The notes beneath the pieces are model-generated. The model ran no database searches and was not told where the DNA came from. It saw nothing but the letters and a program-made list of their open reading frames with translations. From contig CAMWMF010000020.1 of the NCBI GenBank assembly GCA_947175335.1, positions 1-35,146 of the forward strand: a DNA stretch of 35,146 bases. Direction: 5' to 3'. How positions within the stretch are numbered: position 1 is the stretch's first letter; every line of letters begins with the position of its first letter. This DNA comes from an uncultured Clostridia bacterium. Lineage in GTDB: Bacteria > Bacillota > Clostridia > Christensenellales > Pumilibacteraceae. The position numbers and the translations under genes are program-made. Of the stretch, positions 5,360 through 23,138 are shown piece by piece.

Positions 5360-5388
5360 TTGACAACGTTTAATCGCGGTGATATAAT
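5360..5388 (+). promoter_or_regulatory. Consensus promoter placing transcription start on the ATG (leaderless)
   Basis: TTGACA (5360-5365), a 17-nt spacer and TATAAT (5383-5388) match the sigma-A consensus perfectly. Only 6 nt separate the -10 box from the ATG at 5395, so the expected +1 falls on or next to the start codon. The only GGTGA-like string upstream (5378-5382) overlaps the promoter and would not be transcribed. Confidence 0.8.
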
Positions 5389-5394
5389 GAATAT

Positions 5395-6138
5395 ATGAAG
5401 CTGATATCCAACAAAACCGACCTGACAAGCATGGACTGCCATATCCACAGTACGTTCTCCCCCGACGCACGCAGTTGCGGCGCGGACGAACCGCAGATAA
5501 TAGCGGACAGAGTGCGCGAAGCGGGCTTGCGCGGCTTTATAGTAACCGACCACTTGGATATGAGCCACTGGGACGGATATATAATAGACTTCGACAAGTA
5601 TTTCGACGCGTGGCAACGCGTGCGCGACAACAATCCCGACCTTACAATATATATAGGGTTGGAAGTCGGGTTCGAACAAAAGCACGCAAGCGAAACGGCA
5701 AAGCTTATCAAAGACCTGCCGCTCGAATACGTGATTAACAGCGTGCATTACTGGGAACATCCCGTACCCGCACCCAAGGGTATGCCGCCCTACCTTACGT
5801 ACTTGCAAGCAATACACAGCTCGCTGGACGCCGATTACGAGTTTAACACTATCGGGCATATCGGTTTTTTGGAAAGGTATATAAATACGCCGATGGAGTA
5901 TGCCGAGTATAAAGATATTATGGACGATATTATCAAGACCGCCGTGGCGCGCGGGTTGCGGATAGAGGAAAACACCAACGCCGCACTGCCACCCCGCCAA
6001 CCGCGCGCCGACTTTTTACGCGCGTACAAAGCGGCGGGCGGAGTAAAGCCGGTGCTCGGCTCGGACGCTCACACCTCGGACAAAATCGGTCAGCACTTCA
6101 CCGAAGCCGCCGAGTTTTTGAATAAAATATTCGATTAA
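5395..6138 (+). CDS. PHP-domain phosphoesterase, histidinol-phosphatase (HisK/HisJ) type
   Basis: The 247-residue protein has the full PHP metal-site pattern: HIHS at residues 16-19, TDHLD at 51-55, a GLEVGFE motif, NSVHYWE, IGHIGF and a C-terminal GSDAH. These supply the His/Asp/Glu ligands for the metal centre that hydrolyses phosphate monoesters. Length and motif order fit the PHP-type histidinol-phosphatase, which makes histidinol from histidinol phosphate. No other histidine genes are nearby, so the substrate could differ. The gene stands alone on the plus strand between two minus-strand genes and ends at a two-way terminator. It has no ribosome binding site in the position expected for a leadered mRNA and its promoter predicts a leaderless transcript. 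Confidence 0.85.
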   Translation: MKLISNKTDLTSMDCHIHSTFSPDARSCGADEPQIIADRVREAGLRGFIVTDHLDMSHWDGYIIDFDKYFDAWQRVRDNNPDLTIYIGLEVGFEQKHASETAKLIKDLPLEYVINSVHYWEHPVPAPKGMPPYLTYLQAIHSSLDADYEFNTIGHIGFLERYINTPMEYAEYKDIMDDIIKTAVARGLRIEENTNAALPPRQPRADFLRAYKAAGGVKPVLGSDAHTSDKIGQHFTEAAEFLNKIFD

Positions 6139-18442: not shown

Positions 18443-20206
18443 TTACTCGGCTATTATAACTCCGTCACGCGTAAACAAAACTTTTGCACGCGCTATATCC
18501 TGCTGGTACAAATCGTCCTCGGTGCGTTCTATATGGGCGCGCTTTTTTACGCCCAACGCATCAAGCGCCTGTTCCAGTACGCTCTTTACGCTCGGGTCGC
18601 CCATTGCCAAAAACACGTCGTCGGGCGAAACAAACGCTATGTATTCGTCACGCTCGCGTACAGTAACACCGTGCGACAACAGTCGCATAACGCGCGCCGA
18701 GGACGGCGCATCCGACTTGCGCAAAGTGCGCACTATTTTGCCTTGAAGCTCCAACCCCTGCTCCGCCGTAGCCTTTAAATGCCAAAACTCGCCCTCGTCG
18801 GCTGCTGCGACCTCGCTCTTGCCGACACGCGGCTTTTGAGCGGCGCGCATAGGCGCGGGCTCGGGCGGAGGTGCGTTGTATGTTTCGGGCGGGGGCTCCG
18901 GTTCGTAATCGGGTACGCTCTGCGGCGGTGCCTTCGGTTTCGGCTGCTCTGTCGGCTTAGCCTGCGCCGTCGGCTGCGCGATAGGCTTAGTCGGCGCAGT
19001 TGTCGGTTCGGTAGGATTTGCCGCAGGCTGCGATGTTATTTTATTTTTTTTTTGCTCCGCGGGAATGCCTGCGGAGTTTTCGAGCGCTGTAAGTCTGCGC
19101 AAAATATCGTCTTCTTTTTGTCCGCCGCACACCGTTTTGATGAGCGCCGTTTCCAAAAATACGCGCGGGTTGACCGAATATTTAAGCCCGCTCTCGGCGT
19201 TGCCCAGCTCGGTAAGTATGCGCGAAATTTCGGTCATGCTATACTTGTCCGCCGACTGCGCTATGTTTTGCACTGTGGCCTTGTCGGCGTTTATCAGTCC
19301 GCCCGCTACGGCCTTGTCCTTGCCAACCGACTTGCACACCAAAACGTTGCGCGTGTAGTCTATAAGCTGACGGCACACAGCCGACATGGACTTGCCGCTT
19401 TTTACGAGTTTATCGATAACGGTAAGCACGCCCGTAAGGTCGCGCGAAGCTGTGTTGTCGAACAATGCGGAAATTGCCGCGTTGTCGCCCGCGCCCGTGA
19501 GCGCAAGCACGACTTCGGGCGTAATTTCCTCTGCCGCAGAAGCGAGCGTATCGGCAACGGAAAGCGCGTCGCGCACGCTGCCTTCACCCAGCCGCGCAAT
19601 TTCCTCGGCGGCGTCGGGCGTATACTTAATGCCTTCCGCGTCGTAAATGCGCGCTATGTGCTTGGCAAGAATATCGGTGGGAACAAGCCTGAAATCGAAC
19701 CTAATGCACCGCGACAAAATTGTCTGCGGCAGCTTTTGCGGCTCGGTGGTTGCGAGTATAAATATTACGTGCTCGGGCGGCTCCTCTATAGTCTTTAACA
19801 GTGCGTTAAACGCACCGCCCGTCAGCATATGCACCTCGTCGATTATATACACTTTATATTTGCATGCGACGGGCAAGTACTTTACCTTTTCCCTAATATC
19901 GCGCGCGTCGTCCACGCCGTTGTTAGACGCGGCGTCCATTTCTATAATATCGACGTTGTCGGCAGCGAGCTTTTTGCACGCCTCGCACTCCCCGCACGGG
20001 CTGCCGTTTACGGGATGTAGGCAGTTGACCGCCCGCGCAAAAATACGCGCGCACGACGTTTTGCCCACGCCGCGACTGCCGGTAAACAGATACGCGTGTC
20101 CGATACGGTTAAGTTTAATTTGATTGGTCAGCGTGGTGACGATTGGGTCTTGCCCTATAACGTCCTCAAACCTTTGCGACCGATATTTTCTGTACAATGT
20201 AGCCAT
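18443..20206 (-). CDS. dnaX: DNA polymerase III gamma/tau subunit
   Basis: The 587-residue clamp-loader ATPase has Walker A GSRGVGKT (43-50), a zinc module with Cys62, Cys71, Cys74 and Cys77, Walker B IIDEVHML (121-128) and the SRC motif (165-167). Domains I-III end near residue 370. A Pro/Thr/Lys-rich linker and a tau-type C-terminal domain follow. At codons 385-388 the mRNA has a run of ten A residues just after a GC-rich hairpin; loss or gain of one base in that run brings a stop within three codons, giving a gamma-like protein of about 388 residues. The ATG has no ribosome binding site and starts 6 nt after the -10 box. The next gene downstream is nadE. Confidence 0.95.
   Translation of the reverse strand: MATLYRKYRSQRFEDVIGQDPIVTTLTNQIKLNRIGHAYLFTGSRGVGKTSCARIFARAVNCLHPVNGSPCGECEACKKLAADNVDIIEMDAASNNGVDDARDIREKVKYLPVACKYKVYIIDEVHMLTGGAFNALLKTIEEPPEHVIFILATTEPQKLPQTILSRCIRFDFRLVPTDILAKHIARIYDAEGIKYTPDAAEEIARLGEGSVRDALSVADTLASAAEEITPEVVLALTGAGDNAAISALFDNTASRDLTGVLTVIDKLVKSGKSMSAVCRQLIDYTRNVLVCKSVGKDKAVAGGLINADKATVQNIAQSADKYSMTEISRILTELGNAESGLKYSVNPRVFLETALIKTVCGGQKEDDILRRLTALENSAGIPAEQKKNKITSQPAANPTEPTTAPTKPIAQPTAQAKPTEQPKPKAPPQSVPDYEPEPPPETYNAPPPEPAPMRAAQKPRVGKSEVAAADEGEFWHLKATAEQGLELQGKIVRTLRKSDAPSSARVMRLLSHGVTVRERDEYIAFVSPDDVFLAMGDPSVKSVLEQALDALGVKKRAHIERTEDDLYQQDIARAKVLFTRDGVIIAE
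19044..19076 (-). promoter_or_regulatory. Candidate programmed slippage site in dnaX (hairpin plus A10)
   Basis: On the minus strand CTCCGC (19076-19071) pairs with GCGGAG (19060-19055) across a 10-nt loop. One C follows and then ten A (19053-19044). The normal frame reads CAA AAA AAA AAT AAA. One extra A gives CAA AAA AAA AAA TAA; one fewer gives CAA AAA AAA ATA AAA TAA. Confidence 0.7.
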
Positions 20207-20212
20207 ACGCTA

Positions 20213-20241
20213 AGTATAATACGAAAAGGACGGTTTGTCAA
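20213..20241 (-). promoter_or_regulatory. Promoter of dnaX, start predicted on the ATG (leaderless)
   Basis: TTGACA (20241-20236), a 17-nt spacer, TATACT (20218-20213), then 6 nt to the ATG at 20206. Between the promoter and the ATG there is no purine-rich ribosome binding site. Confidence 0.8.
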
Positions 20242-22451: not shown

Positions 22452-22513
22452 CAAAGGTAAAACACGCAAAATCACTTTCGACAAACCTTATCCCCGTTTG
22501 ACAAAATTCGCAA
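22437..22513. promoter_or_regulatory. Inverted repeat spanning the -35 boxes of two divergent promoters
   Basis: Left arm TTGCGAATTTGTCAAC (22437-22452) is almost the reverse complement of right arm GTTTGACAAAATTCGCAA (22496-22513). The arms differ by two single-base insertions. Each arm contains TTGACA and the first bases of the spacer. A shared operator would explain the match. Confidence 0.55.
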
Positions 22514-22526
22514 TATAATATACAAT
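22498..22526 (+). promoter_or_regulatory. Promoter of the AlkZ-related gene, start predicted on the ATG (leaderless)
   Basis: TTGACA (22498-22503), a 17-nt spacer, TACAAT (22521-22526), then 6 nt to the ATG at 22533. A better-looking TATAAT at 22514-22519 would leave only a 10-nt spacer, so it is less likely. No ribosome binding site lies before the ATG. Confidence 0.75.
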
Positions 22527-22532
22527 ATTTGT

Positions 22533-23138
22533 ATGGAAAGAATATTCACTGTTGACGATATAATAGACTGCGTAAACGAGTACGGCATACTTCCGTTTTG
22601 GGCGGAAGACGAGTTTTCCGCGTGGCAGCTTAGCGGCGTAAGCTTTATGAAGCTGTGGAATATGCGCGAAAAAGCGATAAATTCCAAAAAGATTGCGTAC
22701 GGCAAATTTGTCAACAAAAAATCGACGTTCGTGTCGCTGGAAGCCTTCCCCTACCTGTGCGCGCTCCGTCGCGACGGATACGACTTCGATTCGCTTTCCG
22801 ACGAGGGACGTGCTCCGCGACGGGAAATAGAATTGATGAACGCCGTCGGCAACGAACCCACGCGGTCGTACAGACTGAAACAATCGCTGAACATGAAAGG
22901 TTTTGACGGCGTTGTCACCTCGCTTCAAAACAAGACATATCTGTGCCTTACCTTTGAAAAAAGCTATATGGGTACGGCAATGCTAAGCCGCCCCGAAGAC
23001 GTTTTCGGTTACGACTACGTGCGCTCGGCGTATAATCTTTCGGTCGAGGAAAACGCAGCCAAGCTTTCAGAGCTGTGCAAAGGACTGTACGAATTCGACG
23101 AAAAAACTCGATCGAAAATTCTATCGCCGGCAATTTAA
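22533..23138 (+). CDS. AlkZ-related winged-helix protein
   Basis: This 201-residue protein resembles the AlkZ-related group of Firmicutes proteins, a short relative of the AlkZ/YcaQ DNA glycosylases that unhook interstrand crosslinks. Visible features are FTVDDIIDCVNEYGILPFW at the N-terminus, then RSYRLKQSLNMKGFDGVVTSLQNKTYLCL (positions about 110-138, split here only for naming) and a C-terminal segment with EDVFGYDYVRSAY. The catalytic QxQ/QxR motif of true AlkZ is not obvious, so DNA repair activity is uncertain. It is transcribed divergently from the ATPase-exporter operon and stops before a strong two-way terminator. Its promoter predicts a leaderless mRNA. Confidence 0.65.
   Translation: MERIFTVDDIIDCVNEYGILPFWAEDEFSAWQLSGVSFMKLWNMREKAINSKKIAYGKFVNKKSTFVSLEAFPYLCALRRDGYDFDSLSDEGRAPRREIELMNAVGNEPTRSYRLKQSLNMKGFDGVVTSLQNKTYLCLTFEKSYMGTAMLSRPEDVFGYDYVRSAYNLSVEENAAKLSELCKGLYEFDEKTRSKILSPAI

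Follow-up and report, generated by a model that had tools for sequence, protein, structure and literature searches.

The window, that is, the whole stretch of 35,146 nt analysed here, contains a gene for a PHP-domain protein whose promoter ends only six nucleotides before the start codon. The locus raises the question of whether the mRNA of this gene begins directly with its start codon, and whether such an arrangement is a coincidence or the mark of a class of leaderless genes, as was proposed in a preliminary description of this DNA.

Three promoters with identical spacing to the start codon

Direct reading of the sequence and a pattern search both revealed, on the forward strand, TTGACA-N17-TATAAT-GAATAT-ATG (positions 5360-5397), i.e. 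the perfect promoter, six nucleotides and ATG that had been described for the PHP gene. The -35 hexamer TTGACA occupies positions 5360..5365, and the -10 hexamer TATAAT, 17 nt past it, occupies positions 5383..5388, 6 nt (GAATAT) ahead of the ATG. The open reading frame that follows (5395..6138, forward strand) codes for a PHP-domain protein of the HisJ-like histidinol-phosphatase family, as judged by matches to Pfam PF02811 and TIGR01856 and by the N-termini of orthologues, and is predicted to be leaderless, with +1 at the A of the ATG at 5395.

The same two methods located TTGACA-N17-TATACT-TAGCGT-ATG on the reverse strand (20241-20204), in front of dnaX, the gene for DNA polymerase III gamma/tau (18443..20206, reverse strand; NF004046, TIGR02397). 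The -35 hexamer TTGACA (20236..20241) lies within the 54-nt gap after an arsenic efflux gene, the -10 hexamer TATACT (20213..20218) is 6 nt (TAGCGT) ahead of the ATG, and the predicted +1 of a leaderless transcript is the A of the ATG at 20206. The third site, TTGACA-N17-TACAAT-ATTTGT-ATG (22498-22535, forward strand), was found in the same way and precedes a gene for an AlkZ-related protein (22533..23138, forward strand; Pfam PF24741). Its -35 hexamer TTGACA is at 22498..22503, its -10 hexamer TACAAT at 22521..22526, 6 nt (ATTTGT) ahead of the ATG, and its gene, too, is predicted to be leaderless, with +1 at the A of the ATG at 22533.

These three sites (5360, 20241 on the reverse strand, and 22498) are the only matches to TTGACA-N17-TANANT-N6-ATG in the window, and none was found in any of 100 dinucleotide shuffles of it. 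When up to two mismatches were allowed, the window contained 6 matches, versus 0.44 expected from the shuffles. The identical spacing that had been noted at the three genes is therefore confirmed, as is the lack of a ribosome binding site: the upstream regions of all three were inspected, and no Shine-Dalgarno (SD)-like word was present ahead of the ATG of the PHP gene, dnaX or the AlkZ-related gene. The accompanying claim, that other genes here have clear ribosome binding sites, holds for only part of them, since 12 of the 29 window ORFs delimited with a simple gene caller have an SD-like word, 4 nt or longer, at the called start. The GC content of the window is 48-53%; neither tRNAs nor Rfam matches at gathering score were found in it.

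Promoters six nucleotides from ATG are in excess genome-wide

The assembly that holds the window is 1.96 Mb long and 94% complete. From it, a gene sample of 835 kb was compiled, consisting of 40 stretches of 20 kb each (800 kb) and the window, in which 598 genes were called by hexamer score; the called genes cover 77% of the sample, and some genes were missed. In-frame ATGs were examined from the upstream stop codon to 60 codons past the called start, which gave 1402 gene-ATG pairs. A promoter was considered strong, or full, when it matched at least 5 of the 6 letters of the -10 hexamer and at least 4 of the 6 letters of the -35 hexamer.

A full promoter ending exactly 6 nt before an in-frame ATG (an N6 site) was observed for 26 genes, versus 1.02 (sd 1.01, maximum 6) in 200 dinucleotide shuffles. 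At other distances the counts were 1 (N5), 2 (N7), 1 (N8) and 3 (9 nt), those at 5, 7 and 8 nt being at background. The N6 excess amounts to 24.5 genes, or 4.1% of the 598. The summed excess of full promoters at distances of 15-60 nt was ca. 87, a sum in which one gene may count repeatedly; by arithmetic from these excesses, with longer leaders uncounted, N6 sites make up ca. 22% of strong promoters within 60 nt of an ATG. In the whole assembly, the pattern TTGACA-N16-18-TANNNT-N4-9-ATG had 61 matches, and the reversed pattern had 3.

The peak was also seen when individual elements were counted. In the 835-kb sample, TATAAT was found 6 nt before an in-frame ATG 16 times, while each other distance between 0 and 20 gave 0-4; at the same distance before an out-of-frame ATG, a GTG or a TTG it was found 0, 1 and 0 times, respectively. 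The GTG and TTG values are at background level, and few GTG starts would be expected anyway among 598 genes. In separate promoter counts, TTGnnn-N16-18-TATAAT was followed by an ORF-starting ATG at 6 nt in 14 cases (0-5 at other distances), and TTGACA with any TANNNT in 6 cases (0-4 at other distances). With TANNNT alone, a distance of 6 did not stand out (47, versus 14-43 at other distances of 1-20, 55 at 0, 59 at 25 and 52 at 28), and we conclude that the -35 element and the remaining letters of the -10 element matter. Thus, N6-spaced promoter-ATG sites are a class of their own, as had been proposed from the three window sites, and not a coincidence: N6 alone is in large excess over the shuffles (26 versus 1.0 ± 1.0), the outcome expected from coincidence, no excess, was not observed, and the spacing recurs family-wide (see below).

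Properties of the N6 sites and their genes

The spacer between the two hexamers is 17 nt long in 22 of the 26 N6 sites, and 12 sites contain TGn ahead of the -10 element. An SD-like word between -20 and -4 was present at a single site. The base preceding the ATG is T in 22 cases, C in 3 and A in 1, i.e. a pyrimidine in 25 of 26. Bacterial RNA polymerase usually prefers to start on an A that is preceded by a pyrimidine, and the observed bias agrees with +1 at the A of the ATG; the extra support is modest, since 130 of 178 SD-led ATGs also have a pyrimidine at this position (Fisher p = 0.007 for the difference).

Coding score selects the N6 ATG as start in 17 of the 26 genes. In two weaker cases the N6 ATG precedes the coding-score start by 43 and 73 codons, respectively, and about one of the 26 sites is expected by chance. 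A further N6 ATG, 17 codons before the coding-score start, belongs to the GluQRS gene, whose product matches its family from residue 3.

Out of 23 N6 proteins encoded outside the window, 20 were scanned against NCBIfam at 1e-10; 11 had a match at this threshold, and 9 had none. Matches above the models' own cut-offs were obtained for GluQRS and Rpe. For RdgB/HAM1, an NAD-kinase-like protein, an RsuA-type pseudouridine synthase, a RarA-like ATPase and one of two HAD-type proteins, the matching models were below their cut-offs. The remaining matches were to RlmD, a biotin ligase, an amidohydrolase and the second HAD-type protein. Residue 3 of GluQRS aligned with profile position 4 and residue 2 of Rpe with position 3, while residue 1 aligned with position 1 in RdgB, the RsuA-type synthase and the RarA-like ATPase (the models of the latter three being those below cut-off). 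These N-terminal matches indicate that in all five genes the N6 ATG is likely the true start. Overall, the N6 genes look like ordinary housekeeping enzymes without a visible common pathway.

Conservation of the spacing in orthologues

The window's DnaX matches its family models from its residue 3, in agreement with the N6 start. Matches to dnaX were found in all 74 family genomes searched, and the 30 best-scoring loci were read. In every one of the 20 genus members, source genome included, precisely 6 nt separate the -10 element from the ATG. Among the 10 loci from other genera, the distance is 6 nt in 2, 7 nt in 2 and 9 nt in 1; in 2 loci a GAGG-type SD sequence lies within a leader of 17 nt, 1 has a weak site at 39 nt, and 2 have none. 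The 22 dnaX sites with a distance of 6 nt, two of which come from other genera, contain 16 distinct six-letter strings, so that the length is kept while the letters vary.

Several dnaX loci deserve separate mention. In two loci of another genus (L173 and L177) the -10 element ends 17 nt before the ATG, with the GAGG-type SD sequence in between, i.e. a leaderless-to-leadered difference is seen at one gene. In loci L164 and L165, the -35 element is directly adjoined by an inverted repeat that probably represents the preceding gene's terminator. At L169 (dnaX of genome G004) the match is split in two pieces in different frames with internal stops, which may be due to an assembly error, a broken gene or a frameshift.

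The AlkZ-related gene behaved similarly. It had no match in 1 of the 20 genus genomes searched; in the 19 loci found (source genome included), the distance is 6 nt in 17, 9 nt in one, and one has no such promoter, and the 17 sites at 6 nt contain 14 distinct six-letter strings. As judged from these alignments, the N6 spacing of dnaX and the AlkZ-related gene is kept by selection between species of the genus.

Of 25 loci retrieved for the PHP gene, 3 were left aside because their alignment began at residue 14, 2 had no hit, and two represented the same stretch, which left 19 distinct loci. The -10-to-start distance is 6 nt in 5, 7 nt in 3, 9 nt in 2 and 28-43 nt in 5 of them, and 4 have no such promoter. 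The spacing of this gene is thus labile, with predicted leaderless or near-leaderless transcripts in the closest relatives and leadered ones in others. The architecture said to be shared by the three genes is therefore robust for dnaX (20 of 20) and the AlkZ-related gene (17 of 19), and least conserved for the PHP gene (5 of 19), the very gene for which it was first noted.

Distribution in the family, order and phylum

The pattern TTGACA-N16-18-TANNNT-N6-ATG was present in all 74 family genomes examined, in 5-43 copies each (14-29 copies per genome within the genus), while the reversed control gave 0-4. Among 299 genomes across the phylum, the source genome contained 20 matches in 2.0 Mb, and the next highest count, read by eye, was 13, in a 7.3-Mb genome. 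In 248 genomes of the order, N6 matches totalled 1552, versus 684 matches for a control spacing of 12 nt (N12; counts copied by hand). N6 exceeded N12 at p < 0.001 in 11 of the 33 families of the order (144 genomes), with p-values that treat related genomes as independent and are consequently too small. The largest N6/N12 ratios were those of f130 (2 genomes), f147 and the window's own family, f1 (235 versus 40). No N6 excess was observed in f154 (39 versus 39) and f146 (29 versus 42), and many of the remaining families are represented by few genomes. One family, f126, had the opposite preference, with N12 clearly above N6 (89 versus 48), perhaps a sign of SD-led genes whose leaders are very short.

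A comparison of DnaX with named sequences had mostly Clostridia MAGs at the top, the best match being Candidatus Caccovivens faecavium at 52% identity. In the 17 genomes behind the named loci, N6 counts were 1-13 each, with 0-6 for the reversed pattern, which was the control for this set. Two MAGs of 0.9-1.0 Mb had the highest counts (13 and 12), together with Eisenbergiella tayi, which has 12 in a 7.6-Mb genome; for Ca. Caccovivens, 9 N6 matches were counted in 1.1 Mb, with a reversed control of 0. Raw counts from a single genome can mislead: in G215, from another family, a single sequence, probably a repeated element, accounts in identical copies for 4 of the 11 N6 matches.

Shine-Dalgarno initiation in the source genome

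A permissive count revealed an SD-like word near some in-frame start of 358 out of 596 genes, and AGGAG was strongly peaked at the usual SD distance before ATG in the sample of the source genome. Since SD words are enriched at their usual distance, SD initiation must work in this organism; it is the main route, and SD sites serve most other genes. Absence of IF3 was considered as a reason for the leaderless class and ruled out, because infC is present. S1-domain matches are also present in the genome, three of them within one open frame of 694 codons. No match to 16S rRNA was found in the source assembly (94% complete).

Alternative explanations

AT-rich upstream regions could by chance yield -10-like words near ATGs, an explanation that fits the TANNNT-alone counts, in which a distance of 6 is matched or exceeded at 0, 25 and 28. 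It fails for full promoters, which stand out from the shuffles at 6 nt and are at background at 5, 7 and 8 nt, for the TATAAT peak, which among the ATG classes is seen at in-frame ATGs only, and for dnaX and the AlkZ-related gene, whose orthologues conserve the spacing. As an account of the class, chance is rejected by the window shuffles, shifted distances, dinucleotide shuffles, reversed pattern and N12 spacing, and we consider it extremely improbable; a single gene could still owe its site to chance. If the promoters are real, the ATG might nevertheless not be the start, with translation beginning at a downstream codon and the apparent beginning of the coding sequence serving as a leader. 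The PHP gene has an internal ATG at 5431, beside the PHP motif, and 10 of 20 aligned rows have Met at this position. The remaining 10, however, have Ile or Leu, no SD word precedes 5431, and the 12 residues upstream of the PHP motif show recognisable conservation within the genus. In addition, several N6 gene products, DnaX, GluQRS, Rpe and RdgB among them, match their families from the N6 ATG onwards. A wrong start is thus rejected for the genes with informative N-termini, by orthologues and family profiles, and is very unlikely in general.

More weight, while still on the unlikely side, is given to the view that the class is near-leaderless and not strictly leaderless, with leaders of just 1-3 nt, or with a mixture of starts in which upstream promoters add leadered mRNA. 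Orthologues of the PHP gene, the AlkZ-related gene and dnaX with distances of 7 or 9 nt do exist, and leaderless starts of C. phytofermentans are reported to be generally accompanied by a second, upstream start. In the source genome, however, the peak is at 6 nt alone (2 full promoters at 7 nt and 3 at 9 nt), and 25 of the 26 N6 sites have no SD-like word.

A model for leaderless initiation at N6 sites

The reading that we prefer, and hold to be very probable, is that N6 sites are housekeeping promoters in which the A of the ATG serves as +1, which would yield leaderless mRNAs for ca. 4% of the genes of an otherwise SD-using genome. The position of a promoter of the sigma-70/sigma-A type would make RNA polymerase initiate at this A, 7 nt past the -10 box, and the resulting mRNA would begin with 5'-AUG and have no leader. 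Leaderless mRNAs are bound directly at their 5'-terminal AUG by a 70S ribosome, or by a 30S subunit with initiator tRNA, and the transcripts of N6 genes would be expected to enter translation by the same route. Relative resistance to kasugamycin is a further trait expected of leaderless translation. At the sequence level, the model is supported by the presence of both hexamers, the mostly 17-nt spacer, the exact distance of 6 nt, the pyrimidine at -1, the lack of SD sequences, and the conservation of the spacing while letters change. N6 genes may, besides leaderless mRNAs, also produce leadered transcripts, given that leaderless genes of C. phytofermentans are described as generally having an upstream start with a ribosome binding site.

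A broader proposal, which we regard as possible but somewhat less likely than its negation, is that one part of the order uses DNA-encoded leaderless initiation as a stable, AUG-only second route. Genes such as dnaX would be held in the class by selection on the 6-nt spacing across the genus, others would switch between leaderless and SD-led states by promoter moves, and sister families would be without the class, which would make the lineage a natural experiment in gain and loss. The uneven occurrence of the class among the families of a single order provides a comparative system for the study of what makes genes become or stay leaderless. Further, should the transcripts prove leaderless, any gene-start prediction or expression model built on SD sequences will be in error for several percent of the genes of this group, dnaX included.

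Comparison with known leaderless systems

Leaderless genes as such are well known; what is new here is the lineage and the degree, and the class is unusual for its degree and its conservation. Among the titles listed by a literature search on leaderless genes, none concerned this lineage, which is not a claim of absence from print. In Actinobacteria, GTG also serves as a leaderless start. Of the 209 Firmicutes genomes covered by Zheng et al. 2011 (PMC3160421), 56 were reported to have leaderless genes, at 4.2% (2.4-16.6); the cases were concentrated in Lactobacillales and Mycoplasma, and the text contains no word starting with "clostridi". Like the TA-signal leaderless genes described there, N6 genes have a -10-like signal close to the start codon and no SD sequence, and are a minority class in Firmicutes. 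The TAtaaT form of the signal is described as typical of medium-GC groups, to which the window, with its GC content, is alike. Unlike those cases, the strict set of N6 sites also has a good -35 element, which is partly due to how the set was selected.

In Deinococcus-Thermus (PMC12340547), a -10 motif ca. 6-7 bp before the ORF drives leaderless genes, and the spacing requirement was shown experimentally; the distance is alike here. Most of those leaderless genes are reported to be without a classical -35 element, unlike the N6 genes, and PprI of Deinococcus is described as starting with GTG, whereas here GTG and TTG at 6 nt are at background (1 and 0), in a gene sample where few GTG starts are expected. 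StartLink predicts leaderless transcription in 21.6% of bacterial species, and its authors also cite antibiotics to which leaderless transcripts are not sensitive.

The preliminary description held leaderless initiation to be less well known in Clostridia. That is correct, but the phenomenon is not unknown there, ca. 1-4% having already been measured in several Clostridia. Reported values include leaderless transcripts at 4% of transcription start sites between genes in C. phytofermentans, ca. 2-3% in three solventogenic clostridia and ca. 2% of starts, with leaders under 10 nt, in C. autoethanogenum; 15 leaderless genes are reported for C. difficile, and 11 leaderless ORFs, all with ATG, in a transcription start site map of A. 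bakii. These percentages and ours differ in denominator, mapped starts in the published Clostridia and called genes here. The predicted outcome is the same in mapped Clostridia, which belong to the same broad class, and restriction to ATG is shared with A. bakii. In the accounts of the mapped Clostridia leaderless genes are called rare, while here the promoter-ATG spacing is fixed and recurs throughout a family, with no ribosome binding site at 25 of 26 sites; leaderless starts look unusually common in this lineage.
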